Shown: one piece after another, positions 7,677 through 31,059 of the stretch | Layout of the letters: each line of letters begins with the position of its first letter | Numbering within the stretch: the stretch's first letter is position 1 | Source: Microbulbifer bruguierae | GTDB taxonomy: Bacteria > Pseudomonadota > Gammaproteobacteria > Pseudomonadales > Cellvibrionaceae | Assembly: GCF_029869925.1 (NCBI RefSeq) | Contig: NZ_CP118605.1 | Location: 4,306,001 to 4,370,000 of the forward strand | Direction: 5' to 3' | DNA: 64,000 nucleotides | Notes under the pieces: model-generated | What the model was told of the DNA's origin: nothing | What the model saw: the letters and a program-made list of their open reading frames with translations, nothing else | Database searches by the model: none | Position numbers and translations under genes: made by a program

Positions 7677-7790
7677 GGTGCCGATGCCGGGTACGGTCTT
7701 GCGAGACCTTCCGCGAGAGGGACCTCGCGGAAGAGCCCCCAGGGATGGGTGTACGGCGCGTCTCGCAAGACCGTACCCGGTAGCGGCACC
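7677..7790 (-). repeat. Intergenic inverted-repeat element, copy A
   Basis: Arms 7677-7707 and 7760-7790 pair over 31 bases with two mismatches. Inside lie a 10-bp hairpin (7708-7717 with 7724-7733) and a small CCCA-TCCC-TGGG hairpin (read on the minus strand, about 7738-7749). The minus-strand core, GAGACGCGCCGTACACCCAT continuing to GGGGGCTCTTC, matches copy D almost base for base, while the arms differ. The boundary motif CCGCCACC sits at 7790-7797. The element fills the 315-base gap between bioA and the GH9 gene; nothing else was seen there. Confidence 0.85.
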
Positions 7791-7821
7791 GCCACCGGAC
7801 TTGGAATATTTAGAGAGATAC

Positions 7822-9093
7822 TCAGAGCGAGGAAAGGGTTTCGACCATTGCACCGGTCAGACGGCTAAGGTCTTCGGAAGAAATAACATAAGGCGGCATT
7901 GCATAAACCAACTTGCCGAACGGGCGCAGCCACACACCGCGCTCGATCAGGCTTTCCTGCAGCGTCCGGTTATCCACAGGCGCTTTCATCTCCACCACGC
8001 CGATGGCACCAAGCACACGCACATCGGCCACGCCACTGGCCTCTTTCAGAGGGGCCAACTCTTTAATCAGTTGCGCCTCGATATTGTTCACCTGCTGCTG
8101 CCAGTCACGCTCCAGCAGCAGATCAACACTGGCATTGGCGACCGCACAGGCCATCGGATTGCCCATAAACGTCGGGCCGTGCATAAACACACCCGCCTCG
8201 CCCTTGCAGATCCCCTCCGCCACCTTATCGGTACACAGTGCCGCGGCCAGCGTCATGGTACCGCCGGTGAGCGCCTTGCCAAGGGTCAGAATATCGGGGC
8301 TGATACCCGCGTGTTCGCAGGCAAACATCTTGCCACTGCGGCCGAAGCCCGTGGCAATTTCATCGGCGATCAGCAGCAGGTCGTATCTGTCGCAGAGCTC
8401 ACGGACTTTGCGCAAATAGTCCGGGGAATAAAAACGCATACCGCCGGCGCCCTGGACAATGGGTTCCAGAATCACCGCGGCCAGTTGTTCGCGATTCTGT
8501 GCAATCGTTTGCTGCAGCTCGGCGATGTCGGCATCGGTGCAGGGTTCGTCGAATTTCGGTTCTGGTGCCGGCGCAAACAGGTGCTGGGTGAGCTGACTGG
8601 CGAACAGGTGGTGCATGCCGGTGACGGGATCGCAGGTGGCCATGGCACCGAAGGTGTCGCCGTGGTAGCCGTTGCGCAAGGCGAGCAGTTTGTTTTTCTC
8701 TGGCCTGCCCTGGGAGTGCCAGTATTGCAGGGCCATTTTGATGGCGACTTCGACGGAGACTGAGCCGGAGTCGGCGAGGAAGACTTTCTGCAGTGGTTCT
8801 GGGGTGAGTGCCACGAGTTTTTTGCACAGTTCGATGGCGGGCTCATGGGTGAGACCGCCGAACATGACGTGGCTCATTTTTTCCATCTGCGCCTGCATGG
8901 CGGCGTTCAGTTCGGGGACGTTATAGCCGTGCAGGGTGCTCCACCAGGAACTCATGCCGTCGATCAATCCGCGGCCGTCTTCGAGATAAATTCGTACACC
9001 TTCGGCTCTTGCGATGGGGTAGACGGGCGGGGGATTGATCAGGGAAGAGTAGGGATGCCAGATGTGGTTTTTATCGAACTCTAAATCCATCAT
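7822..9093 (-). CDS. bioA: Adenosylmethionine-8-amino-7-oxononanoate aminotransferase
   Basis: Catalyses the PLP-dependent transfer of the amino group of S-adenosylmethionine to 8-amino-7-oxononanoate, giving 7,8-diaminopelargonate in biotin synthesis. The 423-residue length matches the family. Diagnostic stretches include HIWHPYSS at the start, [10 protein letters not shown], the [16 protein letters not shown] helix, [12 protein letters not shown], and the PLP-binding Lys in [11 protein letters not shown]. It starts with two consecutive ATGs (9093 or 9090). No other bio genes are adjacent, so it stands alone here. It is flanked on both sides by copies of the intergenic inverted-repeat family (A downstream, B upstream). 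Confidence 0.95.
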
Positions 9094-9125
9094 GGTTCTG
9101 TCGAGTGGTCTTCTTAAGCAAGTGT

Positions 9126-9247
9126 GGTGGCGGTGAAGCGCCGGGTATCTGTTTTTGAAACCGGGCTAGGCGCCCCCCTTCAACCCATCCCTGGGCGCTG
9201 CGGCGCAAACATCCTGTAAGCGACGCTTTCAAAAACAGATCCCCGGC
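9126..9247 (+). repeat. Intergenic inverted-repeat element, copy B
   Basis: Arms 9140-9160 and 9227-9247 pair over 21 bases with one mismatch. The interior has a CCCA-TCCC-TGGG hairpin (9184-9195) and a second stem-loop tipped with ACATCCTGT (GCGGCGC against GCGACGC). The boundary motif GGTGGCGG is at 9126-9133. The block GGGCTAGGCGCCCCCC (9163-9178) recurs, inverted, in copy E. The element lies upstream of bioA. Confidence 0.8.
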
Positions 9248-9302
9248 ACTCCCCCTGCAATTCAAATATTTGTACTTCGTAAGCGAATAAGTCTAACTAC
9301 AT

Positions 9303-9356
9303 CGTCATTCCGGCGCGAAGAGCCTGTGCCGGACTTGATCCGGTACCGGAATCCAG
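9303..9356. repeat. REP-like palindrome (CGTCATTCCGG...CCGGAATCCAG type)
   Basis: ATTCCGG (9307-9313) pairs with CCGGAAT (9346-9352), and an inner CCGGA/TCCGG hairpin lies between. Palindromes starting CGTCATTCC and ending GGAATCCAG are widely scattered in proteobacterial intergenic DNA. It sits between the YbbP-type gene end and repeat B. Confidence 0.6.
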
Positions 9357-9383
9357 CGCTACGAAGCTGTTAACAGGCCCTAG

Positions 9384-11852
9384 TCAGGCAAGCTCACGCA
9401 AAACTTTCAATGGCGGCTCACTAACCGCACTGCGACAGGCCAGCGTCCCCGCAGTACCAACCAGTAGCGCACCAACCGCAGGGCCAAGTACCCACAGCCC
9501 AGGGTGGAAATTAAACGGTAACTCAAATACTCGCTGCGAAAGCACCGCAAGTGTCGCTTCGGTGCCAAAAGCCGCAAGCAGTCCCGCGGCAATTCCCAGC
9601 AATCCAAATTCGATGATCAGGCTGCGAATAAGTAACTGCCGGCGGCCGCCCAGTGTGCGGATGACAGCGGCCTCCTGCAAACGCTCGGCAATGCTGGCGC
9701 GCACGCCGGCAACCAGGACGAGTACGCCGGCGATCAGCATCAGGGCGAGAACGGCTTCGATGGCGAAGGCGACCTGGCTGATGGTTTCGCGGATGTTTTC
9801 CAGGATCTTGTCCAGTTCGATGATGCTGACACTGGGGAAGTTTCGCACCAGTTCGTTGACGAACAGTTTGTCTTCAGGGGGCAGGTAGAAGCTCTGAATG
9901 TAGGTTGCTGGGAAGCTGTCGAGGCTGCCGGGAGCGAAGATCATGAAAAAGTTCGGGCGCATGCTGTTCCAGTCGAGGGTGCGCAGACTGGTAACGGGCG
10001 CTTCGGTTTCAAGACCGCCGATGGAGAAACGCAGCACGTCGCCGAGGTTCAGGCCGAGGCGGGCGGCGACTTCGACTTCCACTGAAATCCCTTGGGAAGA
10101 GTCGTCTTCGCTGGTTTCTTCGTTCCACCATTTTCCTGCGACAATTTTGTTGTCGGCGGGGAGGGTGTCGGTCCAGCTCAAATTGAGCTCACGGCGGATG
10201 GCGCCGTCATTTTGTTCACGCTCGGTAACCGGGGTGCCGTTTACGGCGATAAGCCGGCCGCGGACCATGGGATAGAACTCGGTGCCTTCGAGGTGTTTGT
10301 CGGCGATGGCGCGTTTGACGGCGTCGAGCTCGTAGGGAGCGATATTGACGAGGAAGTGGTTGGGTGCATTGTCCGGCAGCTGCATTTTCCACTCGTCGAT
10401 CAATGCGGTGCGCGCGTAGAACATGGCGAGCATGGCCAGCAGGCCGGTGCCAAACGCGGCGATCAGCAGAGTGTTGAAGCCGGCACGGCGCTGCAGGCTA
10501 CCGAGGGCGATGCGCCAGCTGCCGCCGAGGGCGGCGAGCCTGCCTCTGACCAGCAGGCGGTTGACGGCAGCGGCGCCAGCCACCAGGAGCCCTAGCCCGG
10601 CGAGCAGGGCGACGGTGATGGCGAGGCTGCCGGACAGCCACCAGATCAGCAGCAGCATGGAAATGGGACCGGGTAACAGGCCGAGCCATTCGCGTCTGTC
10701 CGGGTTGCTCCAGTCCTGTCGCAGGGTCTGCATCGGGTCGGTCTGGGCGAGGCGGAACAGGGGCGGCAGGGCGAAGCCGACCACGCAGGCGAGGCCGGTG
10801 GCGATACCGACCAGCAGGGGCTGCCAACTGCTCGGGGGCGGAGTGACCGGGAAGAAACCTTGCAGCAGGTTGACAGCCTGGGACTGCACCACGGAGCCGA
10901 TGATGAGGCCGATGGCCGTGGCGATCAGGGTGAGGGCCGCCATCTGGCCGATGTAGATTCCGAGGATTTTGTGTTTACCGGCGCCCAGGCTTTTCATCAC
11001 GGCAACGTAATTCGCGTGGCGCAGGCCGTAGCGTCTGGCAGCGAGACCGACGGCAACACTGGCGAGCAGGACCGCCAGACTGGCGGCCAGATACAGGAAG
11101 CTTTCCGCGCGTTCCAGCGTCATGGCGACCCGTGGCTGTCCCTCCTTCAGGTCGGTGATGTGTTCGTGCAGGGTGAGTTTGGGGCGCAGCCATTTGAGGT
11201 AGTTGTCCAGCGCAGCGTCGTCGCCGGCGAGCAGGTAGTTGTAGTTGACGCGACTGCCGGGCTGCAGAATGTTGGTGGCGGCGAGATCGCTGGTGTGCAT
11301 CATAACCCGCGCTCCCATGGAGAACAGGTTGGCACCGCGGTCCGGTTCGTGGTCGATGATGCCGCTGATGGTGAAACTGCTGTCACCCAGTTGCAGTTGG
11401 TCGCCAATACCGAGCCGCATCAATGGCAGCAGGCGCTCTTCCAGCCAAACTGTGCCGGGTTCTGGGCCTCGCTGCACCACGCGTGACTCTTCTTCGACGG
11501 ATTGTCGTATCTCCAGGTGGCCAACCAGTGGGTAGCCGTAACTGACGGCTTTGACCGACGCGAACTGGAATTCATCGCCGGCGGCAAGCATGGAGGCGAA
11601 GGTGACGGTTTTCGCCCGCTGCAGGCCGAGGGAATTGGCCTTTTCCAGCCATTCTTGCGGTACTTCCTTGCTACTTTTCAGTACCCGTTCGGCGGCCAGA
11701 AAGCTCTGGGACTGGATGTGCATGGCACGGGTCAGGCGATCGGAGAAGTGGGCGATGGCGGTGACGCAGCTCACCGCCAGGATCAGTGCGGTGGCGATAA
11801 GTGCCAGTTCGCCGCCGCGCCAGTCGCGGCTCAGTAGTCGCAGGGGCAGCAT
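9384..11852 (-). CDS. FtsX-like ABC transporter permease (YbbP type)
   Basis: An 822-residue inner-membrane protein predicted to be the permease half of an ABC exporter of the MacB/LolC-like superfamily. A first membrane segment at about residues 17-35 is followed by a large periplasmic domain, and then by two FtsX-type blocks of about three to four helices each (about 255-420 and 690-815). Its ATG overlaps the stop of the ATPase gene by one base (TGATG), so the two are translationally coupled. The pair next to a divergent tesA gene has the same arrangement as ybbA-ybbP/tesA in Escherichia coli. The transported substrate is not established; lipid or lysophospholipid-related export is a family-level guess. 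Confidence 0.88.
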
Positions 11853-12592
11853 CAGGCGGATACCTCCGCCTGTTCACCGAAAGGGGCGTCGGGGAGGTCG
11901 GCGGTAGAAATTTCTCCGGCGGACATTCGCAGATGCGCTCCGCAGCGTTCGGCGAGGCGCTGTTCGTGGGTAACCAGTACCAGGGTGGTGCCGGTTTCTG
12001 CATTGAGTTTGAACAGCAGGTCGATGACCTTTTCGCCGTTGTGGGCGTCGAGACTGCCGGTGGGTTCATCGGCGAACAGAATGCCGTTGCGCTGGTCATT
12101 ATCTGTATTGGCGATGCTGCAAAATGCCCGCGCAATAGCCACTCGCTGCTGTTCTCCCCCGGAGAGCTGGCGCGGGTAGTGGTGCAGGCGGTGGCCGAGT
12201 CCCACCCGTTCGAGGAAGTCTTCTGCACGCTTGCCGGCGTTGCGCTCGCCGCGCAGTTCGCTGGGCAGCATGACATTTTCCCGCGCGGTCAGGCCCGGCA
12301 GCAGTTGGAAGGTCTGGAACACAAAGCCCACACAGCGGGCGCGCACGGCCGCTCGCTGTTCTTCGTCCATGGCGGTGATCTCTTCGCCGGCGAGCCAGAT
12401 CTTGCCCTCGGTGGGGCGGTCGAGGCCGGCGAGCAGGCCGAGCAGGGTGGATTTTCCCGAGCCTGAGGCGCCGGTAATGGCGAGGCTCTGGCCGGCCGGG
12501 AGCTGCAATGAAATGTCGTTGAGCAGGGTCAAAGGGCCTTCACTGGTGGTGACGCGGTGGTGAAGGTTTTCGGCTTTGAGCATCACTGACAT
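11852..12592 (-). CDS. ABC transporter ATP-binding protein (YbbA type)
   Basis: The ATPase subunit partnering the FtsX-like permease; 246 residues from the ATG at 12592, which has AGGGA eight bases upstream. An in-frame extension upstream to 13372 is antisense to tesA and has no family resemblance, so it is excluded. Walker A is [11 protein letters not shown], the Q-loop is [21 protein letters not shown], the signature is [14 protein letters not shown], Walker B is [12 protein letters not shown], and the switch His is in LVTHEQRLA. These are hallmarks of the MacB/LolD branch. A short insertion (about [11 protein letters not shown]) sits between signature and Walker B, which is unusual for the family. 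Confidence 0.92.
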
Positions 12593-12649
12593 GGCAAGTC
12601 CCTGTAATTCCTGCAAAATGCGTAATAAATATGAAGTGGAGAGTATGAC

Positions 12650-13357
12650 ATGGCGGCAGTCTTTTTCCGGTATCCAGTGCCTGCTTTTATCTTGCGTTGC
12701 CTGCGCTTTGTCGCGCTGGTCACGGTTTTTTACGCTGGTCAGGCGTTGGCGGATGACCGGGAGGAAGGGCGCAGGACGCTGCTGGTACTGGGGGATAGTA
12801 TCAGCGCGGCGTACGGGATCGATGAGCGCCAGGGCTGGGTGCAGTTGCTGCGGGAGCGGCTGGCGGAGCGCGAGCTGGATATCGCGGTGGTGAATGCGAG
12901 TGTGAGCGGGGAGACATCTGCGGGTGGCCTGGTGCGGTTGCCGCGACTGCTGTCTGAGCATTCTCCGGATTGGTTGGTGCTGGAGCTTGGGGGCAATGAC
13001 GGTTTGCGGGGATATCCGCCGCGGGCATTGCAGAATAACCTGCTGCAGATTGTGAAGCTGGCGCGGGATGGTGGTGCGGAGGTGCTGCTGCTGGGGATGC
13101 AGATGCCGCCCAATTACGGTAAGGCGTATACCCGGGCGTTTGCGGACGTCTATCCGAAGGTGGCGGAGGCGGAGCAGGTGCCGCTGGTACCATTTTTTCT
13201 GGAAACGGTGGCGCTGGAGGAGGGGGCCATGCAGTCCGATGGTATTCACCCCACGGCCAAGGCCCAGCCGGCACTGCTGGACCATGTATGGCCCTGCCTG
13301 GAAACCATACTGACAGGCAATGGGAATAGCCGGTCCGATAGCCTGTGCACTTCTTGA
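12650..13357 (+). CDS. tesA: SGNH-family acyl-CoA thioesterase I / arylesterase
   Basis: A periplasmic esterase of 235 residues that hydrolyses acyl thioesters, aryl esters and lysophospholipids. A signal peptide covers about residues 1-35 (ending QALA). SGNH blocks are clear: the nucleophile Ser in LVLGDSISAAYG, the Gly of block II, the Asn in ELGGNDGLRG, and the Asp-His pair in DGIHPTAKAQ. The C-terminal tail after the last helix (about 15 residues) is rich in Ser and Asn and not conserved in kind. It is divergent from the YbbA-type gene with 57 bases between starts, the same partnership as in enteric bacteria. Confidence 0.93.
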   Translation: MAAVFFRYPVPAFILRCLRFVALVTVFYAGQALADDREEGRRTLLVLGDSISAAYGIDERQGWVQLLRERLAERELDIAVVNASVSGETSAGGLVRLPRLLSEHSPDWLVLELGGNDGLRGYPPRALQNNLLQIVKLARDGGAEVLLLGMQMPPNYGKAYTRAFADVYPKVAEAEQVPLVPFFLETVALEEGAMQSDGIHPTAKAQPALLDHVWPCLETILTGNGNSRSDSLCTS

Positions 13358-13439
13358 TCGGAAAGCGTACAATCGCGCCCTGATTTTTACGGGGCCCGGC
13401 TAGGCGGCTCCGTAGTTGGGGCTGCTTCGTAGCGGGTTC

Positions 13440-13561
13440 GGTGGCGGCGCTGCCACCGGGCAAACCTTTGCGGGACACGCTACGAGTTCATCCCTGAACG
13501 CTCGGCTGTGGCCATCCATGGCCACAGACGGTACCGCAAAGGTTTGCCCGGCGTCAGCGCC
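13440..13561 (+). repeat. Intergenic inverted-repeat element, copy C
   Basis: Arms 13446-13473 and 13534-13561 pair over 28 bases with two mismatches. Inside are GTTCA-TCCC-TGAAC (13486-13499) and a 10-bp hairpin with loop CC (13506-13527). The boundary GGTGGCGG is at 13440-13447. Core bases GGGACACGCTACGAGTTCAT resemble the D core. A further stretch at about 13395-13411 (CCCGGCTAGGCGGCTCC) resembles the B/E core. Together these fill most of the 314-base gap between tesA and ttcA. Confidence 0.8.
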
Positions 13562-13598
13562 TTCGCATCGACGTTTGAACTTCGTAGTCAATTTTCTG

Positions 13599-13630
13599 TA
13601 GGTTGGGCAAAGCCGCAGGCGTGCCCAACA
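13599..13630. repeat. Short hairpin repeat of the TAGGTTGGGC...GCCCAACA type
   Basis: GTTGGGCA (13602-13609) pairs with TGCCCAAC (13622-13629). Repeats of this form are common between genes in many proteobacteria. It lies 42 bases upstream of ttcA. Confidence 0.6.
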
Positions 13631-13671
13631 TCGCGCTCAACAAATTGCTGTTCTGTATTTGAGATTTACCC

Positions 13672-14604
13672 ATGTCTGATCTGGAAAACCGCCGCGAGCG
13701 GCTGGAATTCAACAAGCTGCAAAAGCGCCTGCGCCGCAATGTGGGCAAGGCGATCGCCGACTTCAATATGATTGAAGAAGGCGACAAGGTGATGGTGTGT
13801 CTGTCGGGTGGTAAGGATTCCTATGCGATGCTGGAAATCCTGATGAACCTGCAGAAGACCGCGCCGGTGCATTTTGAGCTGGTGGCGGTGAATATGGATC
13901 AGAAGCAGCCGGGTTTCCCGGAGCACATTCTGCCGGAGTACCTGCAGAATGTGGGGGTGCCGTACCACATTGTGAACAAGGATACCTACAGTGTGGTGAA
14001 GGAGGTGGTGCCGGAGGGCAAGACGACGTGCGGTCTGTGTTCGCGCCTGCGCCGCGGGACCCTGTACGGTTTTGCCGAGGAGATCGGTGCAACCAAGGTG
14101 GCGCTGGGGCATCACAAGGATGATATTGTCGAGACACTGTTCCTGAATATGTTTTATGGTGGTCGCCTGAAGGCGATGCCGCCGAAGCTGCGTGCGGACG
14201 ATGGACGCAACATCGTGATTCGCCCGCTGGCTTACTGCCGCGAATCGGATCTGGTTGCGTTTGCGGATCACAAGCAGTTCCCGATTATTCCCTGCAATCT
14301 GTGCGGCAGTCAGGAAAACCTGCAGCGGCAGGCGATCAAGCAGATGCTGAATGACTGGGATCGCAAGTTTCCCGGCCGCAGTGACAATATTTTCGCAGCG
14401 CTCACCCGGGTGTCGCCGTCACAGTTGGCGGATCGGGATCTGTACGATTTTGAGAGTCTGGAACTGGACCGCTCTATGCCTGCGCCCGAGGTGGACGCGC
14501 GATCGATCGAGCAGTCTGTGGATTCCTGGATTCCCGCGGATGCTCGCGATGAGGAGCAGACTGAGGTTGCGCAGCCAATGTATATTGAGGCCCGCAATCT
14601 GTAG
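13672..14604 (+). CDS. ttcA: tRNA 2-thiocytidine biosynthesis protein TtcA
   Basis: An iron-sulfur enzyme that thiolates cytidine 32 in certain tRNAs, using ATP to activate the base. The 310-residue length fits. The PP-loop is [12 protein letters not shown] (about residues 43-54). A CxxC pair lies in [15 protein letters not shown], and the third conserved Cys in [10 protein letters not shown]. The [18 protein letters not shown] stretch is typical. The last 40 residues are acidic and poorly conserved. The 3' end overlaps, antisense, the frame of the gene on the other strand. Confidence 0.95.
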
Positions 14605-15193
14605 TGGTGGTAGTGGGTGCCTGCAGCGCATCTGTTTCACGAGCCGCGGTGTTTGCCGCGGCTTTTTTATGCTCAGGTTTGTGTCCTGAGACGGGGTTTC
14701 CTCGCTGCCTGCTTTCCAGGGGCCTGATCAGACGGCAGTAGCTGTCGACAAAATCTCGCAGGCTGGCGCTGGGGCCGTGATGGAAGTGTTTTTTCCACAA
14801 TTTGGCCATCTTCGGCAGATCTTCGCTCTCCACTTCGCCGACGCCGGCCGCGCGGTAAACCAGCCAGGCGATGGCGGTCGCGTAGCGCAGGTTGGTGGCG
14901 AGTTCGGAGTGGGGGTGTTGCAGGAAATCCCGTTGGCTGGCGAGGCCGCGTACCTTGGAGGCGAGCGCGGGGAAGTCGATCAGGTACTTGTCCCAGATCT
15001 GTCGGTGGGTACTGGGCTGTATCTGGAAAATTCCCAGACCGTGCCGGCGCCCCAGTTTCAGGTGGAAGCCGAGTTCGGATTCCTGTGCTGCGGTGCCAAG
15101 CAGCAGGGCTTCCATCCCCGGTGACCAGGCGCGCAGTTGTTTCAAGGTGGGACGAACTACCAGTAGCCGCAGTTCGTCTAAACAAATACTCAT
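14474..15193 (-). CDS. Lysozyme-like (transglycosylase-fold) protein with low-complexity tail
   Basis: A 239-residue cytoplasmic-looking protein with no signal peptide. Residues about 20-130 resemble lysozyme-fold transglycosylases of phage type: a possible catalytic Glu in the [10 protein letters not shown] segment, followed by [12 protein letters not shown], resembling the ESG...GLMQI pattern. From about residue 170 the sequence turns basic and rich in Thr, Ala and Pro. That part is read antisense through the ttcA terminator and the last 131 bases of ttcA before a stop is reached. The ancestral protein was therefore probably shorter, and the tail may be a read-through extension. Function is uncertain: peptidoglycan cleavage is possible, but export is not evident. 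Confidence 0.6.
14642..14668 (+). terminator. Rho-independent terminator of ttcA
   Basis: AGCCGCGG / CCGCGGCT stem (14642-14649, 14556 side excluded; partner 14656-14663), loop TGTTTG, followed by a T-run to 14668. It lies 37 bases after the ttcA stop and inside the antisense lysozyme-like frame. Confidence 0.85.
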
Positions 15194-15403
15194 AGCGTTT
15201 TGCTAATCCTTTACTGCCGAGCTTGAAAGTGCCTTTCCTTGGCACCGTTCAATATCTGTACTCTCACCCTTGGTTTAGTTTGCCGATTGAGTAAACGCCA
15301 GCGAATGGGTAGATTTACGCGCAATTAAGACCAATAACGACGGAATCAGCCTATTCTTTCGCCAAAATAGGCAGAATCTTCCAAATTTGACGGGGAACCT
15401 CAC

Positions 15404-16879: not shown

Positions 16880-16943
16880 TCTGAGCACGGCGCGCCGCAT
16901 AGTTGCGCGATTGATCGGTGGTGCCGCGGTTGGAGTTATTGGA

Positions 16944-18088: not shown

Positions 18089-18148
18089 GTTAATACTTGC
18101 CGGGTTGCTGGTTTTTCCCTTTCGGCGAACTAAATCAGCGCGAGTAAC

Positions 18149-22893: not shown

Positions 22894-22909
22894 AGATCAC
22901 TTTCCCGCG

Positions 22910-24223
22910 CTATTTGCCGGTTTCATAGGGGGTGTAGACATCGCCCGGCTGGTTTCGCTGTCTCGCTTCCATGGTCGATCTCTGATATTCCTGAAAAGCT
23001 TCCTGCTCTTTGCGCAACTGTTCGCGCAGGGAGTAGGGCGGTGGGCGAAGGTTGGGTGGTACTGGATCGTCGAATTGCTTGATTTCAACCGGTGTGACTT
23101 CGACAACGTCGCCCGCGCTGACTTTCTGTAGTCCCTCTACGAGTACTCTGTCGCCTACTTTGAGCCCTTTGCGCACAGCCCAGTTGGGCCCGATGCGCAT
23201 ACCGACTTCAATATTGGCCCGCTTGACCTTGTTTTCCTTGTCCAACAGGTAGACGTAATGTCCCTGCTGATCTTGGGATACCGCCTTTTGTGGAATCACG
23301 ATGCGCTGTATTTCTTCCAGTAGTTTTCCATGCAGGGTGACATTTTCCTGGGGCAGAAGCAGACCCTCTGAGTTGGGGAACAGGACGCGGGCAGCGACGG
23401 TGCCCCGGGTAGAGGCGGCAGTGGCGTCCCAGGAGAAGAACTCTCCCTTGTACGGATACACCGTACCGCCCGGCAATACGATGTAGAGCTCCATATTGGG
23501 GATAGCGAGGCCTTGCTGTCGCAGCTTTTCGACCGCGCCATAAAACTCGTTGTAGGCCTTCTGGCCAATGTGGGCGAGTACATACACCGGGTCCACTTTG
23601 ATGAGTTGTGTAATAGGCACCGAGTTGGGAAGGATGAAAAAGTCGCCCACAGCGTAGTTGGGGTGCCCCACTCGTCCGGAAAATGGCGCGACGATCGAGG
23701 TGTGAGAGAGATCCTGTCTGGCCTGGTGGAGTGAGGTCTGGGCGGTGTTGAGATGCGCTTCCGCCGCCTGCATAGCGGATTTGGCCGTATCGAAATCCTT
23801 CGCGGAAATGTATCCCTGTGGGCGCAGGTTTTGTGCGCGATTGAAGTTGGCTTTCGCTTCTTCGTAATTGGACATCGCTTCCGCGACGCTGGATTCCGCT
23901 GTGGCAACCTTGGTTTCAAAAGGGTAGGGGTCCAGTCTTACGAGTTCTTCACCCTGTTTGAAATACTTACCGGGCTCGATGTTTTGATACAGGATTCTGG
24001 AGGCGACGAGGGGAAAAATCTGTGCGGTCTCCACAGCTTCCACCACCGCGGGCACTTCAAAGCTGGGTCTGAAGCGCATGTGTTTGGCTTCGACCACTTC
24101 CACTTTTTTCGGCGGTGGGGTTGGTTTGGCGGCTTCTTTTTCTCCGCAGCCAATCGGCAGCAGACAGGCTACGAAAAAAAGATTCCGCCAATGGAGATGG
24201 TTACGTAGAGATTGGTACATCAT
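22910..24223 (-). CDS. RND periplasmic adaptor subunit (membrane fusion protein)
   Basis: A lipoprotein adaptor of about 437 residues linking the RND pump to an outer-membrane channel. The signal peptide ends in a lipobox (LPIGC). Then come a lipoyl-like half motif (VETAQIFPLVASRI), an alpha-hairpin (about 110-185, ESSVAEAMSNYEEAKANFNRAQ and its return helix), the second lipoyl half (TSIVAPFSGRVG), a beta-barrel, and the membrane-proximal domain. The start may be ATG 24223, ATG 24220 (better spacing from GGGA) or TTG 24232. It is the first gene of the pump operon, and no adjacent repressor gene was found. The 264 bases upstream hold its promoter and an inverted repeat near lrp. Confidence 0.92.
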   Translation of the reverse strand: MMYQSLRNHLHWRNLFFVACLLPIGCGEKEAAKPTPPPKKVEVVEAKHMRFRPSFEVPAVVEAVETAQIFPLVASRILYQNIEPGKYFKQGEELVRLDPYPFETKVATAESSVAEAMSNYEEAKANFNRAQNLRPQGYISAKDFDTAKSAMQAAEAHLNTAQTSLHQARQDLSHTSIVAPFSGRVGHPNYAVGDFFILPNSVPITQLIKVDPVYVLAHIGQKAYNEFYGAVEKLRQQGLAIPNMELYIVLPGGTVYPYKGEFFSWDATAASTRGTVAARVLFPNSEGLLLPQENVTLHGKLLEEIQRIVIPQKAVSQDQQGHYVYLLDKENKVKRANIEVGMRIGPNWAVRKGLKVGDRVLVEGLQKVSAGDVVEVTPVEIKQFDDPVPPNLRPPPYSLREQLRKEQEAFQEYQRSTMEARQRNQPGDVYTPYETGK

Positions 24224-24432
24224 TTCCCGCAACTTGAGTTAATAAACCTATCTCCATTAATCCTAGAGGGCGGGGCGTCAGCCGGTGAGAAGTTGATCGA
24301 TAGTTGGCGCGAATTTAATTTTTAAGCGCGTTTATCCTTGCGGTAATACGGGTGTCGCTCGGTTCTGGGGCGGCAATGGAAAGGCAAGTCGGAGCGATGA
24401 GCGTCAAGGCAGGGGGGCGGGGGATTTGATTT

Positions 24433-24468
24433 GTTGCAGCAAGGGAAGTGGCGGGGCCTTGCTGCAAC
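24433..24468. repeat. Perfect 12-bp inverted repeat downstream of the Lrp-type gene
   Basis: GTTGCAGCAAGG (24433-24444) and CCTTGCTGCAAC (24457-24468) pair perfectly around a 12-base loop. It lies 29 bases beyond the stop of the Lrp-type gene. No T-run follows on either strand, so it is not a standard terminator; it could be an mRNA 3' stabilising hairpin or an operator. Confidence 0.6.
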
Positions 24469-24496
24469 CGCAGTTTGATGACGTCTTAGCGATTTC

Positions 24497-25006
24497 TTAG
24501 CGATTGTAGTGCACCGGCACCTCCAGGGTCTCTTTGACCTGCTCCATCACCACATAACTGGTGCACTCCTGAACTTCCGGCAGGGTGAGCAGTGTTTCTC
24601 CATAGAACCTGCGATAGGCACTCATGTCCGCCACCCGGGCTTTGATCAGGTAGTCAAAGCTGCCGGATACCAGATAGCACTCCTGTACTTCCGGCAGTTC
24701 GGATACCGCATTGCGGAACGCTTCGAAGGCGTCCTGGGCAGAGCGATTCAGGCGAATCTGCACAAAGACCACCAGTGCGGCATCGAGAAATTCCGGGTTG
24801 ACCAGCGCGGTATAACCCTGGATGACACCGTCAGACTCCATTTTCTTTACCCGCTCCACACAGGGTGTTGCGGTCAGCCCTACATGACGGGCGAGTTCGG
24901 CGTAGCTGGTGCGACCATTCTTTTGCAATACCCGCAGGATATTGCGGTCGATGGTGCTGAGTTCATTGGCGCGTCTTTTCATTTTGTTGCGATTCCCACT
25001 ATGCAT
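24497..25006 (-). CDS. Lrp/AsnC family transcriptional regulator
   Basis: A 169-residue feast/famine regulator (161 if started at the second ATG, 24982). The N-terminal helix-turn-helix is LSTIDRNILRVLQKNGRTSYAELARHVGLTATPCVERVKKME (about 17-58, shown by the AELARHVGLTATPCVERVK core). The C-terminal RAM ligand domain (about 75-155) contains VQECYLVSGSFDYLIKAR, whose Gly turn forms the amino-acid site. It is divergent from alanine dehydrogenase with a palindrome-bearing 268-base gap, the usual place for a dedicated regulator responding to alanine or leucine. The closest well-known match in kind is Lrp itself, so it could be the global protein. Confidence 0.9.
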   Translation of the reverse strand: MHSGNRNKMKRRANELSTIDRNILRVLQKNGRTSYAELARHVGLTATPCVERVKKMESDGVIQGYTALVNPEFLDAALVVFVQIRLNRSAQDAFEAFRNAVSELPEVQECYLVSGSFDYLIKARVADMSAYRRFYGETLLTLPEVQECTSYVVMEQVKETLEVPVHYNR

Positions 25007-25147
25007 TTCTCATTGCTAAATCCGGCCGTTTCTCTGTTGGCCCGGTCACGACTCGCTGGGCAGACCATGGTGAACTGGCGCTTGACTTGTCTGTAGTATC
25101 TGTTCTGGTTCCGGTTGGCTAAATAACGTACTTCCCGCCATTTTTCC

Positions 25148-25210
25148 AGTGGATTCCACTAATCATATTGATAAGTTTATGAAAATCCACTTTAAAAGGG
25201 CGCCTATACT
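25148..25210 (+). promoter_or_regulatory. Candidate operator and promoter of alanine dehydrogenase
   Basis: AGTGGATTCCACT (25148-25160) is a near-perfect palindrome. AATCCACT recurs at 25184-25191, giving an 8-bp perfect inverted repeat with AGTGGATT across 28 AT-rich bases. A -10-like TATACT lies at 25205-25210 with only a weak -35 (AAAATC, 17-base spacer), as expected for an activator-dependent promoter. Binding by the divergent Lrp-type protein is an inference. Confidence 0.45.
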
Positions 25211-25274
25211 GCGGAAATCCAACAAAAAGGGGCGCGCGAGATTGCGCTCACAGAGTTAACGAGGAGAAGTCGTT

Positions 25275-26420
25275 ATGTTGATCGGTGTCCCAAAAGAGAT
25301 CAAAAACCACGAATACCGTATCGGCCTGACTCCGGCAAGCGTCCGCGAGCTGGTAAGCCATGGCCATAAGGTGGTCGTGCAAAAAGATGGTGGCTCAGCC
25401 ATCGGCTTTACCGACGAGATGTACGAACAGGCTGGCGCCACGATCATCGACAATGCGGCAGAAATTTTTGCCACTGCAGACATGATCGTTAAAGTGAAAG
25501 AGCCCCAGCCCCAAGAGTGCGAGATGCTGCGTCCCGGCCAGCTGTTGTACACCTACCTGCACCTGGCTCCCGATCCCAAGCAGACTGAACTGCTGGTGAA
25601 ATCCGGTGCTACCTGTATTGCTTATGAAACCGTAACCGACCGTTTCGGTGGCCTGCCGCTGCTGGCGCCCATGTCTGAAGTTGCCGGTCGCATGTCCGTG
25701 CAGTGCGGTGCCCATCACCTGGAAAAAGCCCAGGGTGGCCTGGGTGTGCTGTTGGGCGGCGTACCTGGTGTGGCTCCCGCCAAGGTATTGATTATCGGTG
25801 GTGGTGTGGTCGGTACCAACGCGGCCAAGATGGCGCTGGGTATGGGCGCTGATGTCACCATTCTGGATCGCTCCCTGCCGCGTCTGCGCCAGCTGGACGA
25901 TATCTTTGGCGGCGCGGTGCGTACCGAATACTCCACCAATGACGCCATCGAACAGCATGCGCTGGAAGCTGACCTGGTGATTGGCGCCGTGCTGATTCCA
26001 GGTGCTGCAGCACCGAAACTGCTGACCCGCGACATGATCAGCCGCATGAAAAAAGGTGCGGTGGTTGTGGACGTGGCCATCGACCAGGGCGGTTGCTTCG
26101 AGACCTCGAAGGCCACCACCCACACCGATCCGACTTATGTCGTAGATGGCGTGGTTCACTACTGTGTAGCGAATATGCCGGGCGGTGTAGCGCGTACTTC
26201 TACCATGGCGCTGAACAACGCCACCCTGCCGTTTGCCGTGGCTCTGGCGAACAAAGGCGCCAAACAGGCACTGATGGACGATGCCAACCTGCTGGAGGGA
26301 CTGAATGTCCACGCCGGCATGGTGACCTACAAAGCGGTGGCCGATGTGCTGGGCTACGAATACGTGGATCCCAAGCTGGCACTGCAAAAATCTGCTGTGG
26401 AGTCCGAGGTGGCTGCCTAA
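25275..26420 (+). CDS. ald: Alanine dehydrogenase
   Basis: Interconverts L-alanine and pyruvate plus ammonia with NAD+. The protein has 381 residues; family members are about 370. MLIGVPKEIKNHEYRIGLTP at the start is the family signature; the active-site Lys/His region is seen in YTYLHLAPD. The NAD-binding motif is LIIGGGVVGTNAAKMALGMGADV (GGGVVG), followed by the VDVAIDQGGCFETSKATTH signature and CVANMPGGVARTST. The start has GAGGAG at ideal spacing. It is divergent from an Lrp-type gene, a known control arrangement for ald. A chain of stem-loops and a strong terminator follow. Confidence 0.97.
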   Translation: MLIGVPKEIKNHEYRIGLTPASVRELVSHGHKVVVQKDGGSAIGFTDEMYEQAGATIIDNAAEIFATADMIVKVKEPQPQECEMLRPGQLLYTYLHLAPDPKQTELLVKSGATCIAYETVTDRFGGLPLLAPMSEVAGRMSVQCGAHHLEKAQGGLGVLLGGVPGVAPAKVLIIGGGVVGTNAAKMALGMGADVTILDRSLPRLRQLDDIFGGAVRTEYSTNDAIEQHALEADLVIGAVLIPGAAAPKLLTRDMISRMKKGAVVVDVAIDQGGCFETSKATTHTDPTYVVDGVVHYCVANMPGGVARTSTMALNNATLPFAVALANKGAKQALMDDANLLEGLNVHAGMVTYKAVADVLGYEYVDPKLALQKSAVESEVAA

Positions 26421-26538
26421 CCAGCCCCAGGAGGCTGGAGAAAAGGAGCCAGGGGATGACCCCTGGCGAATGAAAAAGGTTCTCTTCTGGGGCGTACCCC
26501 ACGCCCCGCTCTGTGAGACTTGGTAGTGTCCGACTACC
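26421..26538 (+). other. Chain of four stem-loops after ald
   Basis: Four hairpins follow in a row: CCAGCC/GGCTGG (26421-26438), CCAGGGG/CCCCTGG (26449-26466), GGGGCGT/ACGCCCC (26489-26507), and GGTAGT/ACTACC (26522-26538, followed by TTTTT, so it could itself terminate). They lead into the main terminator. They may protect the ald mRNA 3' end or belong to a small RNA. No protein gene is evident in the 309 bases before the flavodoxin. Confidence 0.5.
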
Positions 26539-26546
26539 TTTTTATA

Positions 26547-26571
26547 GCCGCGCTTTTTGCGCGGCTTTTTT
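26547..26571 (+). terminator. Rho-independent terminator of ald
   Basis: GCCGCGC (26547-26553), TTTTT loop, GCGCGGC (26559-26565), then six T. Confidence 0.88.
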
Positions 26572-26729
26572 ATTCGCGGTTTTCCGGAATGGTTAACTTG
26601 CCCCGGGATCCTTGCTGTGCCCCCCTATTACTGGGAAAATGCCCGCCCACTGGGGCTATCTATGCACAACACCCCGGGTAGCCTGCAGAAATGGGCAGGG
26701 CAGTATGCGTAGTAGTTTGAGGAGAGAAT

Positions 26730-27281
26730 GTGAGCAAGATCGGCCTGTTTTACGGCAGCGATGAAGGCAATACCCAGGGCGTTGCCCAACGCATTGCCGC
26801 CCGCCTGGGGGACGCCCGGGTCGATATCCACGATATCGCCGATGTCACTCAGCTGGAAATCGCGGACTACGACCAACTGATCTTTGGTATTCCTACCTGG
26901 GATTTCGGCCAGATTCAGTCTGACTGGGAAGACTTCTGGGAGGATGTCCAGGAAATTGATTTCACGGGAAAGACCGTGGCCCTGTTTGGTCTTGGTGACC
27001 AGTTTGGTTACGGCGACTATTTTCTCGACGCCATGGGTATGCTGCATGATGTGATTGTCGCCAATGGTGCCACCATTGTCGGATACTGGCCGACCGAAGG
27101 CTACGACTTCGAGGCCTCCAAAGCCGAAGTACCTGGGGAGAATGTATTTGTTGGTCTTGCCATTGATGAAGACCAGCAGGAAGAGCTCACCAGTGAGCGC
27201 CTCAACCGCTGGTGCCAGCAGATAGCTGATGCTTTCGATCTAGAAGGTGGTGCAGATAGCATCACTTTGCTCGAGGACTAG
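26730..27281 (+). CDS. Long-chain flavodoxin
   Basis: An FMN-binding electron carrier of 183 residues, starting at GTG 26730 with GAGGAGA upstream. The phosphate loop GSDEGNTQGVAQRIA (about 9-23) is slightly unusual because most flavodoxins have T at the start (S/TxTGxT); here the run is GSDEGNT. Flavin-stacking segments are GIPTWDFGQIQSDWEDFWEDV (Trp about 57) and FGLGDQFGYGDYFLDAMG (Tyr about 94). The 20-residue insertion of the long-chain class is present (GYWPTEGYDFEASKA region). It may donate electrons to IspG/IspH, BioB or similar enzymes. The next gene starts seven bases on and is likely co-transcribed. Confidence 0.93.
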   Translation: MSKIGLFYGSDEGNTQGVAQRIAARLGDARVDIHDIADVTQLEIADYDQLIFGIPTWDFGQIQSDWEDFWEDVQEIDFTGKTVALFGLGDQFGYGDYFLDAMGMLHDVIVANGATIVGYWPTEGYDFEASKAEVPGENVFVGLAIDEDQQEELTSERLNRWCQQIADAFDLEGGADSITLLED

Positions 27282-27288
27282 CCCACCA

Positions 27289-27678
27289 ATGCCCAGACCG
27301 CAGATAGATACCCCGCAAAGCACACACACGCTCTCGTTGGAAGAGTTCTGGCACTGGTTGATGGACCATTGCAATTGCGTTCTGCGGGTGGGAACACCGG
27401 ACTCTATTCTTTACGACGATGAGGATTATCACTGGCGTTTCACCAATGAAAATCCACGTACGCTGTTGATTCAACTGGTGCGCGGCAAGCGCCTGGTGGG
27501 GGAAGTGTTTGTCGAGCCCGAGTTTGTCAGTAGCGTCCGGGTATCCCCTGGCGACAAGGATGAAGTAATTTTTGATTTGATGGCCGAGGCGGATGGTGAA
27601 GAGCAGGTACTCTATTACTTTGTAATGTCTCACGGTGTAGAGGCCGATACGCCGTCGCAACACGACAGTCTGCACTGA
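27289..27678 (+). CDS. Conserved hypothetical protein next to flavodoxin
   Basis: A soluble acidic protein of 129 residues that I do not recognise by name. The ATG at 27289 is taken because it falls seven bases after the flavodoxin stop, while an in-frame ATG at 27247 lies inside that gene. The sequence predicts helix (LEEFWHWLMDHCNCVLRVG) followed by beta strands (DYHWRFTNE, LLIQLVRGKRLVGEVFVEPEFV). There is no signal peptide or membrane segment. Two Cys lie close together (HCNC). Tight spacing suggests it works with, or is simply co-transcribed with, the flavodoxin. A bidirectional terminator follows. Confidence 0.75.
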   Translation: MPRPQIDTPQSTHTLSLEEFWHWLMDHCNCVLRVGTPDSILYDDEDYHWRFTNENPRTLLIQLVRGKRLVGEVFVEPEFVSSVRVSPGDKDEVIFDLMAEADGEEQVLYYFVMSHGVEADTPSQHDSLH

Positions 27679-27723
27679 CGTCGTTACGCATAATTGATCT
27701 GCGGAACTAAGCTGTGGAGCAAT

Positions 27724-27760
27724 AAAAAAGCCCTCGCCGATAAGGCGGGGGCTTTTTTTT
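27724..27760. terminator. Bidirectional rho-independent terminator
   Basis: GCCCTCGCC / GGCGGGGGC stem (with one G-T pair), flanked by six A on the left and eight T on the right, between convergent genes. Confidence 0.87.
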
Positions 27761-27771
27761 GCTTACAGTTT

Positions 27772-29253
27772 TTACTCTGCGGCGGCCTCAGTTTCGGCTT
27801 CTGCCGTCAGGAAGTCATCGTAATAGATGGCGTCCGCCGCGTTCGGATCCGCGGAATTGACCGTGGTGATGATGCTATAGATTCCACCGGCGTTCAGTTC
27901 AATGGTATCGGAATAGACAATGGTGTCCGAGCCGTCGAAGGTCACTACCAGATCGTAGGTGCCAGGATTGTATTTCACCCAGCCGCTGCTTTCGCGGTAG
28001 TCCAGGGACTCTTCCGGGTAGAGAGACGAAATATTCTCATCCTGTTCTACCAGATAGTAATCAAATGCGTCGCTGGCACCATTGATCAGGCGTAGTTTTG
28101 CATGGGTCGCCAAGCGTTGCACATTGTCGGTTACCTTGACCCCGTTCCAGTCATAGGATTTGCCGACAAAGAAGTAAGTAGCTTTGTCGCCCTGGGTCAG
28201 GTCCAGTTCCTTGCGTGCGAGGTAGACACCGGGGGAAGCCGCTGGTGTTACATCAACGGACAGGTCGGTCAGCTGGCTCTTGCTGATTTCCCCGTATACG
28301 GAATCGCTGCCAAAGGCCAGGCCGCTGGTGAAGGTTTCTTCAAATTCGTTGTCGATGTAGACATCGATGTCGTCGCCTTCCGGGACTGCGTGGGCAAAAC
28401 GCAATTCGGTGGTGGCATAGCGATCCGTCAGGGTTTTACTCTGGTCACGGAACATGGTGACTTTAACTGGCGCTGTGCCGACCCCGGCACCTTGGCGAAT
28501 GGCAAAACCCACACGGGTTTGCGCGTTGAGAGTAAAGGTGTTGGAGATGAACAGAACCTCTTGCGGGTTACCGACTTCGGTTAGAGTAAGGACATACTCA
28601 CCCTCATCCACAAGACCGTCAAAGGCGTCTTTTGGTGAAACAGTACCTTTGACCTGAACCGGCGACAGATTGGTGCCGGGCGCTTCCAGATAGACGTCTA
28701 CCTGGCCCAGATCTTTTGCCAGGTGGAAGAACCAGATTTCCAGGTTTTCATCTTCGGGATCGCCGTCTTCGTCCTCGTCTTCAGTGTCGAAAACGTGGAG
28801 AGGCTTGCTGTACTGGAGAAATTCCAGATCGCCATATTGTCCATACAGTATTGCCATGTAGTCAGTGTCATTCTGCACATTGAATGACGTGCTGGCGATT
28901 TCCGTACACTCGTCGTCGTCTTTCACTCCATCTTCATCTGCGTCACCAGCGCAGGCGGTGGTGTCGTCTGTGGGCAGAATAACCTCAGCGCGGATACCCA
29001 GCTCCCCTTTGGAGACACCAGATGAGACGCTGCCGCCAAAACCCAGCGTTCCCCAGCCGTATTCATCGTCGTTATCGAACGTAAACAGCGTGACACTTTC
29101 TAGATCGGATACTGCGTTGAATGCACCAATAATCGGACTCTGGGTTGAGTCCTCATCATCGTCATCACTGCCGCTGCCGGAACAGGCGCCCAGGAATCCG
29201 GAAAGTATAAGGACTGAAGCCAGAGAAGAAATTTTCCAGCGATCGAAATGCAT
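27772..29253 (-). CDS. DUF4397 domain lipoprotein
   Basis: A very acidic lipoprotein of 493 residues. The lipobox LGAC is at about residues 21-24, followed by a Gly/Ser/Asp stretch (GSGSDDDDED). Three or so repeats of a beta-sandwich type can be followed, the clearest DUF4397 match being ELRFAHAVPEGDDIDVYIDN (about 285-305), with LRLINGASDAFDYYLVE later (about 395). Two Cys frame a calcium-like loop (DADEDGVKDDDE, about 103-114). The abundance of Asp and Glu points to Ca2+ or salt adaptation. Function is unknown; proteins of this kind are found on the surface of marine Gammaproteobacteria. Confidence 0.82.
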   Translation of the reverse strand: MHFDRWKISSLASVLILSGFLGACSGSGSDDDDEDSTQSPIIGAFNAVSDLESVTLFTFDNDDEYGWGTLGFGGSVSSGVSKGELGIRAEVILPTDDTTACAGDADEDGVKDDDECTEIASTSFNVQNDTDYMAILYGQYGDLEFLQYSKPLHVFDTEDEDEDGDPEDENLEIWFFHLAKDLGQVDVYLEAPGTNLSPVQVKGTVSPKDAFDGLVDEGEYVLTLTEVGNPQEVLFISNTFTLNAQTRVGFAIRQGAGVGTAPVKVTMFRDQSKTLTDRYATTELRFAHAVPEGDDIDVYIDNEFEETFTSGLAFGSDSVYGEISKSQLTDLSVDVTPAASPGVYLARKELDLTQGDKATYFFVGKSYDWNGVKVTDNVQRLATHAKLRLINGASDAFDYYLVEQDENISSLYPEESLDYRESSGWVKYNPGTYDLVVTFDGSDTIVYSDTIELNAGGIYSIITTVNSADPNAADAIYYDDFLTAEAETEAAAE

Positions 29254-29576
29254 GTTTACTCCGATTATTTTTGCAAAAACATCCTGTCTAACTTATCAGT
29301 CAATATGCTTTACATGGATTAAGAAATGTAAGTAAACGGTTTAGAAGTGTGTTGCTATGGGGCTGAGGTGAAGTGAGGTTTCGCTGAAGTGTGTTGAGAG
29401 GAAGGAGGATAACAAGACCGGAGTGTGGGCGGTTAGCAAGTGCTAAGTACGGGGGGAGCTATTCGCTCGTTGATTGCCAATGGTCTTTTGAAATGGTTGA
29501 GAAGATGGCCTGCCATTGAGTTTGAACAGGCCAATCTTCATTTTTCCAGCAATATGTTAATTCTTGTAATGAAGTG
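29254..29576. promoter_or_regulatory. Intergenic region upstream of DUF4397 gene
   Basis: No gene is supported in these 323 relatively AT-rich bases. On the minus strand a TTGACT hexamer (29298-29303) could be a -35 for the lipoprotein gene, and TTACAT (29310-29315) with ATGTAA (29326-29331) forms a short inverted repeat just upstream of it. The half near dapE shows nothing clear. Confidence 0.35.
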
Positions 29577-30710
29577 TTAACTATCGACGAATACACCGCA
29601 CAGGATTTCGCGGTACATATCTTTAACCAGGTCCAGATCATCGGCCTTAACACATTCATCCACTTTGTGAATGGTGGCATTGACCGGACCCAGCTCTACC
29701 ACCTGGGCGCCGGTGGGCGCGATAAAACGACCATCGGAAGTGCCGCCAGCGGTGGAAAGTTCCGTGTCGCGGCCGGTGACTTTTTTGATCGCGGTCTGTG
29801 CGGATTCAACCAGCGGGCCTTCGGCAGTGAGGAACGGCTGCCCGCTGAGATTGAAGTTGGCTTCGTACTTGAGTCCGTGTTTGTCAAAAATCGCGCGGGC
29901 GCGGCTTTCCAGTTGGTCTGCGGTTGTTTCGGTGGAGAAGCGCCAGTTGCACACGACTTTTACATCGCCGGGAATCACATTGGTCGCGCCGGTACCGCCG
30001 TTGATATTGGAAACCTGGAAGCTGGTGGCCGGGAAAAAGTCATTGCCGTGGTCCCATTCTTCCGCAGTGAGTTCTGCCAGTGCCGGTGCCAGTTTGTGTA
30101 CCGGGTTTTCCGCCAGATGCGGGTAGGCCACATGTCCCTGGATACCAAATACGGTGAGTTCCAGGCCGAGAGAGCCGCGGCGGCCGTTCTTAATGACATC
30201 GCCGGCGAGCGCTGTGCTGGAGGGTTCTCCGACCAGACACCAGTCGATTTTCTCTCCTTTACCCTCGAGCCACTCGACCACTTTGACAGTGCCGTGCTTG
30301 GCCGGGCCTTCTTCGTCGCTGGTGATCAGGAAGGCGATGCGGCCTTTGTGATCCGGATGCGCGGCAACGAATTCTTCACAGGCTACGACCATGGCAGCCA
30401 GAGAGCCTTTCATGTCTGCGGCACCGCGGCCGTAAAGCATACCGTCTACGATCTGTGGTTCGAAGGGTGGGTATTGCCAGTTTTCCTGTGGGCCGGTTGG
30501 TACCACGTCGGTGTGGCCGGCAAAGGCAAATAGCGGACCTTTTTCGCCGCGCACGGACCAGAAATTATCGGTATCGCCGAAACGCAGGCGCTCGGTTTTG
30601 AAGCCGATTTTTTCCAGACGTTCGAGCATCAGCTCCATGCAGCCGGCGTCTTCGGGGGTGACGGATTGTCTGCGGATGAGGTCGCAGGCCAGTTGTACTG
30701 TCGGGGTCAT
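29577..30710 (-). CDS. dapE: Succinyl-diaminopimelate desuccinylase
   Basis: A Zn-dependent hydrolase that removes succinate from N-succinyl-LL-diaminopimelate, giving LL-DAP for lysine and peptidoglycan. The ATG at 30710 gives [19 protein letters not shown], the canonical start and a 377-residue protein; an in-frame extension to 30809 would read through repeat D and is rejected. Metal ligands are the His in [10 protein letters not shown], the Asp in GRGAADMKG, and the Glu pair in TSDEEGPA, with Glu in VGEPSS and His in ATIHKVDE. It lies downstream of dapD on the same strand, separated by two repeat elements. Confidence 0.97.
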
Positions 30711-30760
30711 ATTTTTGGGCTCCGTGATTGTTTGTCGGAGCACTATTCCTATTGAGTAGC

Positions 30761-30872
30761 GGCCCGCCTGCCGGGGACTCTTCGCGAGACACGCCGTGAA
30801 CCCATCCATGGGGGCTCTTCTAAAACATCCCTGTTTTAGAAGGTCTCGCGAAGAGTCCCCGGCAGGCGGGCC
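30761..30872 (+). repeat. Intergenic inverted-repeat element, copy D (perfect 30-bp arms)
   Basis: Arms 30761-30790 and 30843-30872 are perfectly complementary over 30 bases. The interior holds CCCAT-CC-ATGGG (30801-30812) and an 11-bp perfect hairpin (30817-30827 with 30832-30842, loop TCCC). The folded form is a three-way junction. The core GAGACACGCCGTGAACCCAT matches minus-strand copy A. It begins 50 bases upstream of the dapE start. Confidence 0.92.
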
Positions 30873-30954
30873 TTCGCGTTGAATTTCAGACTACTTTTCA
30901 ATTTCAGTTGAAATTACTAGCTTGTAATTGTCGAAGCGCAATAGTTAGTGCGAA

Positions 30955-31059
30955 GGCGAAGCATCTGGGGGAGCTTTTCGGAACCGTCGGCGACGGGACG
31001 TATTTAAGGGGGCGCCTAGCCCGATTCCGAAATAGTCCACTTGATGCTTTGCCGCCACC
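30955..31059 (-). repeat. Intergenic inverted-repeat element, copy E (degenerate)
   Basis: The outer stem is 30955-30983 against 31025-31053, with 22 of 29 positions paired; the intact ends are GGCGAAGCATC/GATGCTTTGCC and TTTCGGAA/TTCCGAAA. Boundary motif CCGCCACC is at 31052-31059. The block GGGGGCGCCTAGCCC (31008-31022) is shared, inverted, with copy B. An ACG-TCC-CGT tip (minus strand) replaces the usual CATCC tip. It lies 42 bases after the dapD stop. Confidence 0.75.

Follow-up and report, generated by a model that had tools for sequence, protein, structure and literature searches.

Dispersed three-way-junction elements with two A(N)GGA hairpin tips in Microbulbifer bruguierae: a family of predicted CsrA-binding RNA modules

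Introduction

CsrA control is usually pictured as one protein that is countered by a few dedicated decoy RNAs. The decoys CsrB, RsmX, RsmY and RsmZ come from few dedicated genes, have many sites each, and present repeated hairpins with A(N)GGA at the tips. Here we describe a family of palindromic elements, five of which lie in a window of 64,000 nucleotides of the Microbulbifer bruguierae genome (contig NZ_CP118605.1, positions 4,306,001 to 4,370,000; the coordinates below are those of the window). These elements share the hairpin tips of the decoy RNAs but, in contrast to them, form a family of many loci with two sites each. From the structure, tips and positions of the copies we think it fairly probable that the family consists of dispersed two-site RNA modules predicted to bind CsrA and located mostly at the 3' ends of genes.

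The design of TwoAYGGAY (Rfam RF01731, clan CL00106), an outer stem with two adjacent hairpins that have GGA loops, is shared by the elements. TwoAYGGAY has been recorded from the human gut, Gammaproteobacteria and Clostridiales (PMC2864571), and a paper of 2014 predicts, as work in progress, that it binds CsrA (PMC4333381). RsmU of Xanthomonas, which we compared by its description, is likewise an RNA from an mRNA 3' end with GGA motifs, and it binds RsmA (PMC7694677); it differs in that the description is of a single conserved locus that carries four GGA motifs and is confined to Xanthomonas (PMC7694677). The GTAG- and CGTC-tagged repetitive extragenic palindromes (REPs) resemble the elements in their intergenic location, high copy number and frequent dimers, and CGTC precedes hairpin 2 in some of the copies studied here. 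However, these REPs are single hairpins of 20-40 bp (PMC3733652), whereas the elements are three-way junctions of about 120 nt with drifting stems and do not have the form of a 20-40-bp hairpin with an unpaired GTAG or CGTC tag.

Family size and structure

Searched against the 4,481,396-base genome, a pattern made of one tip and its flank (CATCCMTGNNNGCTC) gave 25 matches, and the reversed pattern gave one. After removal of L003, which has no outer fold, and of the truncated L013, the 23 remaining copies were aligned and used to build a covariance model, R1. A search of the genome with R1 returned 104 rows at E <= 1, with numerous antisense shadows among them; 79 copies, some weak or partial, remain once shadows and duplicates are removed from the fetched stretches. 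A first-pass annotation of the window had described the five palindromes as a family and had named the lack of further copies in the genome as a result that would speak against it. Such copies do exist, and the five in the window belong to a family of about 79. Pairwise identity among the 75 copies of at least 100 nt has a median of 0.64 and a maximum of 0.91; on sequence grounds, the copies in this genome are old.

Read on the strand whose tips contain GGA (the GGA strand), the element consists, in order, of GAAGG, a 5' arm of about 30 nt, hairpin 2, GAGC, hairpin 1, the 3' arm and CCGCCAC. Hairpin 1 is CCCAKGGATGGG followed by TTCACGGCG, and its longer form contains GGCGCCTAGC. The ends of the element (GTGGCGG..CCTTCGC) are not inverted repeats. 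Integron attC sites were also considered and were provisionally set aside on their end motifs. At dapD-dapE, G001 and G033 have nearly identical arms but do not share the form of hairpin 1; the core can therefore be altered at a locus that retains its arms.

Hairpin tips and their likeness to CsrA sites

On the GGA strand the tips read CAGGGATG, CATGGATG, CAGGATG and the like, all of them with A(N)GGA in the loop. This motif occurs at both tips in 64 of the 70 scored copies of this genome, and the letter that follows GGA is variable. Among the 75 copies of at least 100 nt, the tip of hairpin 1 is CAGGGATG in 46 and CATGGATG in 10, with none found in 8; that of hairpin 2 is CAGGATG in 19, CAGGGATG in 18, CATGGATG in 9 and CAGGGACG in 8, with none found in 5. 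Copies from other taxa were selected by a 26-mer core alone (106 of 113 were used, seven weak-armed ones being left out). In these, a clean tip with A(N)GGA is present in 82 of 106 cases at hairpin 2, which lies outside the selection criterion, and 22 of the 24 exceptions still contain GGA in the stretch examined. Both GGAs could be placed in 96 of the other-taxa copies, and in 94 of these the distance between them is 19-21 nt.

The CsrA site obtained by systematic evolution of ligands by exponential enrichment (SELEX) is RUACARGGAUGU, the CsrB repeat is CAGGA(U/A/C)G and the RsmE loop is ANGGAN; two-site bridging by CsrA operates at 10-63 nt, with an optimum above 18 (PMC7652899). The elements carry the sequence features of a CsrA-binding RNA given there, namely A(N)GGA in loops and at least two sites 10-63 nt apart (PMC7652899). 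The M. bruguierae genome carries one csrA gene. Across the class, csrA (PF02599) was detected in 313 of 369 genomes, and among the 314 genomes that are at least 90% complete it is present in 53 of 54 that bear the element and in 227 of 260 others (Fisher p 0.015). Judged from these sequence data, CsrA is the likely ligand of the modules.

Relation to TwoAYGGAY

The TwoAYGGAY model has nine matches in this genome at E <= 1, all of them on the GGA strand of listed copies. These nine copies align over the whole model, with its outer stem and two hairpins, and the fold covaries. The best of them scores 37.4 bits, and the curated threshold of 43 bits is not reached. The elements differ from TwoAYGGAY, whose name implies AYGGAY in both loops, in that their tips are mostly A-G-GGA or AGGA (the commonest are CAGGGATG and CAGGATG) and in that they constitute a high-copy dispersed repeat. 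At gathering level, no Rfam family matches the window elements or those at 18 loci from other taxa. The first-pass annotation had been unable to name a family for the palindromes and had counted a match to a known insertion-sequence end or a described REP family as evidence against its view; no family in Rfam reaches its own threshold on the copies. Among the matches listed in open-licence papers there was no prior description of the family; the sequence matches resemble primers or unrelated sequences. The family thus shares the TwoAYGGAY design and lies outside the curated TwoAYGGAY model.

Covariation and the strand under selection

In the alignment of the 23 pattern-found copies, 95.6% of cells are paired and 33 of 41 pairs show two-sided change. 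This covariation is matched by none of 500 shuffles, and the paired share drops to 36-45% when the partner is shifted by 1-3 columns, although a control of this kind flatters a structure taken from the same alignment. The first-pass annotation had observed that the stems differ between copies yet stay complementary, which the covariation and two-sided changes bear out, and had proposed either selection on the fold or repeated arm-to-arm correction. The 33 two-sided pairs support selection on the fold, as does an excess of G·U over A·C on one strand.

G·U pairs in RNA, whereas its complement A·C does not, and a wobble excess on one strand therefore points to an RNA under selection. For the wobble count, the 5' arm was aligned to the complement of the 3' arm with scoring that is symmetric for both strands. 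In the 106 copies of other taxa, G·U occurs 150 times on the GGA strand and 17 times on the other; copy by copy, 74 favour the GGA strand and 2 the opposite one, with 30 ties, and the excess is seen at 25 of the 27 arm positions 3-29. The per-copy count is the safer one, because the copies share descent and pooled p-values overstate their independence. The pattern-found copies of M. bruguierae have 26 G·U on the GGA strand and 11 on the other (p 0.02), with 22 against 4 in the outer arm and 4 against 7 in the inner arm, where wobbles are rare and unskewed against 382 Watson-Crick pairs. Wobbles in the hairpin-2 stem show no significant skew (5 vs 4; 12 vs 6). Counted by context, copies antisense to both neighbours have 32 G·U and 5 A·C, those that follow a same-sense gene have 78 and 12, and a second count of this type gave 114 vs 18 and 149 vs 20. 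We do not rely on these context counts because the copies came from a model that accepts G·U, and use the pattern-found sets instead. Transcription-linked deamination could add to the skew, but would itself require transcription of the GGA strand. The RNA of the GGA strand appears to be what selection acts on, and we consider an RNA fold on this strand very probable.

The locus between dapD and dapE was compared in this genome and in 40 of 47 other genomes, with genes named by NCBIfam. Of the 41 genomes, 19 have the dapE-proximal element, 17 have the other element, 16 have both and 21 have neither (E <= 0.01). Among the orthologues the letters of the arms vary between species and the pairing is kept, with G·U and A·C counts of 13 and 4 in element 1 and of 33 and 15 in element 2, where ten of the 15 A·C fall at one fixed junction column. 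At this locus, the one compared, there is no clean empty site, since the gaps of pairless genomes are short and diverged and three of them carry remnant-looking arms. The dapD-dapE gaps L282-L284 (in G027, G026 and G008) are short and have element-like outer arms with no core, and are perhaps what remains after core loss.

Distribution across taxa

Within the genus, 24 of 26 genomes are positive at E <= 1e-8, with 0 to at least 137 copies each; no more than 138 candidates per genome entered the scoring, and the highest counts may therefore be lower bounds. A survey of the class, with nine candidates scored per genome, found the element in 64 of 369 genomes, which represent 57 of the 272 genera. 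In a sample of the phylum 27 of 398 genomes are positive, and all 27 belong to the same class or closer. Holders of the exact core among the matches listed are Xanthomonas, Stenotrophomonas, Marinobacter, Rheinheimera, Microbulbifer, Cellvibrio and Halopseudomonas. Plasmid and phage collections searched by blastn with copy 4 of the window gave no match, and the 26-mer core was absent from viral contigs. Xanthomonas has alternating arrays of the element, with six matches (three pairs) in L097 at 2478-3363 and four in L064 at 805-1534.

Genomic context

Neighbouring genes were assigned by simple calling of open reading frames, which is rough: dapE was discarded, so the copy between dapD and dapE was scored (+,-) and not (+,+). 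Relative to the GGA strand, the neighbours of the 79 copies are (+,+) in 29 cases, (+,-) in 27, (-,-) in 21 and (-,+) in two, so that 77 copies adjoin one or more gene 3' ends, 56 come after a same-sense gene and 21 are antisense to both neighbours. Divergent gaps are under-used, with 2 of 79 copies compared to 3 of the 22 window gaps longer than 100 nt (p 0.0008, the window gaps being a rough yardstick). In tandem gene pairs there is no clear bias of orientation (29 sense, 21 antisense). Where two copies lie close together, the usual arrangement is outward-pointing with respect to the RNA strand, as in 6 of 8 such pairs in this genome and 23 of 29 in others. A promoter score is higher upstream than downstream of the copies in this genome (7.22 vs 6.86, p 0.0047), with 7.27 upstream in the antisense control; in other taxa the test gave p 0.67.

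The copies in the window

When the window structures were re-read and folded, all five palindromes were found where the first-pass annotation had placed them, and for each copy none of 200 shuffles folds equally well. The limits given here are those of R1. Copy 1 (7674..7795, RNA strand +, 132.9 bits, z -11.6) has the tips AGGGAC at 7718-7723 in hairpin 2 and CAGGGATG at 7740-7747 in hairpin 1. The other full copies are read on the minus strand, so that the window shows the complements of their tips. Copy 2 (9127..9258, RNA strand -, 66.3 bits, z -4.8) has the long form of hairpin 1, weakened hairpins, and tip complements CATCCCTG at 9186-9193 and CATCCTG at 9210-9216. Copy 3 (13441..13564, RNA strand -, 115.5 bits, z -9.1) sits in a divergent gap, with CATCCCTG at 13489-13496 and CATCCATG at 13513-13520. 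Copy 4 (30756..30875, RNA strand -, 131.6 bits, z -11.7) lies between dapD and dapE, sense to both, with CATCCATG at 30803-30810 and CATCCCTG at 30826-30833. Its decayed partner, copy 5 (30952..31058, RNA strand +, 33.9 bits, z -3.9), has no A(N)GGA tip; the two form an outward-pointing pair separated by a 76-nt spacer (30876..30951).

All five copies are intergenic, as had been claimed, provided that dapE is taken to start at 30710 and not at 30809: the listed start overlaps copy 4, and homology in relatives stops near 30710. Four copies have GGTGGCGG at the same end, again in agreement with the first-pass annotation, and the fifth has GTAGCGG. As to the TCC tips that it described, the second tip of copy 1 is GTCCCT and not CATCCMTG. 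The strands that it assigned are those of the TCC form, and the opposite strand is the informative one. Its structural observation is right and useful, with the strand the wrong way round for recognising the tips, and the resemblance of the loops was missed because the complementary strand was read.

The gene at 4672-7593 (-), adjoining copy 1, encodes a large protein of glycosyl hydrolase family 9 that carries the cellulose-binding domains CBM_2 and CBM_3, and bioA is its neighbour across copy 1. The stretches at 9300-9360, beside copy 2, and at 13600-13632, beside copy 3 (GTCATTCCGGCG..CCGGAATCC and GTAGGTTGGGC..GTGCCCAAC), appear to resemble other dispersed intergenic repeats. A t44 RNA (RF00127; 38426-38537, +) scores 59.5 bits, above the curated threshold, and was the sole hit in the gathering-level Rfam scan of the window.

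Predicted function and alternative explanations

We propose that the module of about 120 nt acts as RNA, in the orientation in which its tips read A(N)GGA, and that it would be transcribed mostly by read-through from the upstream gene. The long outer stem, of nearly free sequence, would close the three-way junction and present the two short hairpins, whose GGAs, at a distance of about 20 nt, could both be held by a single CsrA/RsmA dimer. Binding would then either titrate CsrA, the modules forming a dispersed decoy reservoir, or act in cis on the carrier mRNA. The letters of the stem would drift by compensatory change because mainly pairing matters.

Several observations weigh against this proposal. 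Some congeners hold only 0-3 copies, so the family is dispensable. SELEX hairpins mostly have four or fewer contiguous pairs (PMC7652899), and the stems of hairpin 2 are often longer. When all 369 genomes of the class are counted, the association with csrA falls short of significance (59 of 64 element-bearing genomes vs 254 of 305 others, p 0.084); the five element-bearing genomes that lack a csrA match are G055, G116, G147, G243 and G390, four of them less than 90% complete and one 98% complete. The G·U skew in M. bruguierae is modest and missing from the inner arms, 21 of 79 copies run antisense to the genes on both sides, and there is no convincing promoter signal of their own at the copies.

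If the elements were selfish DNA of the REP kind or of the kind of miniature inverted-repeat transposable elements (MITEs), the folded DNA would be recognised by a RAYT/IS200-type or other enzyme, with the GGA tips as its mark and CsrA irrelevant. The high copy number, intergenic 3'-end sites and outward pairs fit such an explanation, as do the swings in copy number within the genus and an amplified MITE-like carrier in G296, a genome of another family. Five identical elements of G296 (L325-L329) lie inside a unit with the inverted ends AGCAATTCCCA and TGGGAATTGCT that is flanked by direct repeats of about 9 bp, taken as target duplications, which are not the same from one site to the next, as read by eye. 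The unit matches at about 40 places in 51 rows, of which 23 span most of it at 91% identity or more; at six of the places an insert of about 100 bp interrupts it. In G296, therefore, the module can travel as cargo of a MITE-like unit. A DNA fold, however, should tolerate G·T and A·C on both strands, in contrast to the 150 vs 17 observed. Copy number is uncorrelated with Y1_Tnp, the domain of Y1/RAYT transposases, across 26 genomes (Spearman -0.05, p 0.80); two copy-rich genomes, G012 (47 copies) and G021 (43 copies), have no Y1_Tnp match, the two Y1_Tnp places of M. bruguierae are not near any listed copy, and identity between its copies does not exceed 0.91. The results lend no support to a dependence on RAYT transposases. 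The likeness to REPs and MITEs that the first-pass annotation had noted extends to form and position, but not to a copy number tied to Y1/RAYT, and we regard selfish DNA as an unlikely explanation.

The location of 77 of 79 copies at a gene 3' end, the very stable folds and the RNA-strand signature would also suit mRNA 3'-end elements whose long stem stabilises the message, blocks exonucleases or attenuates read-through, with tips that serve another protein or reflect a preference for stable loops. For that role the stem alone would suffice, yet taxa with differing stems have retained both the A(N)GGA tips and the distance between them, and the 21 copies antisense to both neighbours do not fit it either; we consider it similarly doubtful. 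Arm-to-arm correction, in which template switching in quasipalindromes would maintain arm complementarity with no need for selection on the fold, is highly improbable as the sole cause, because copying alone should not favour G·U over A·C on one strand, would not by itself keep the tips, and is at odds with the G·U and mismatch states of the dapD-dapE orthologues, although it may contribute in the unskewed inner arms of M. bruguierae, where several pair columns have all four pair types and few wobbles.

Within the reading of the elements as two-site CsrA-binding modules, a decoy reservoir rather than a cis effect alone is a tentative option. In such a distributed reservoir, which we put forward as speculation, tens to more than 100 modules at 3' ends would, by their summed transcription, couple gene expression to free CsrA; mobile carriers would spread titrating RNA, and the stems would drift as only the fold and the tips matter. 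If this is true, a family that reaches at least 137 copies per genome, with two well-formed sites each, would change the arithmetic of CsrA titration and would assign a role to one class of palindromic repeats in bacteria. The congeners with 0-3 and with more than 100 copies constitute a natural experiment.

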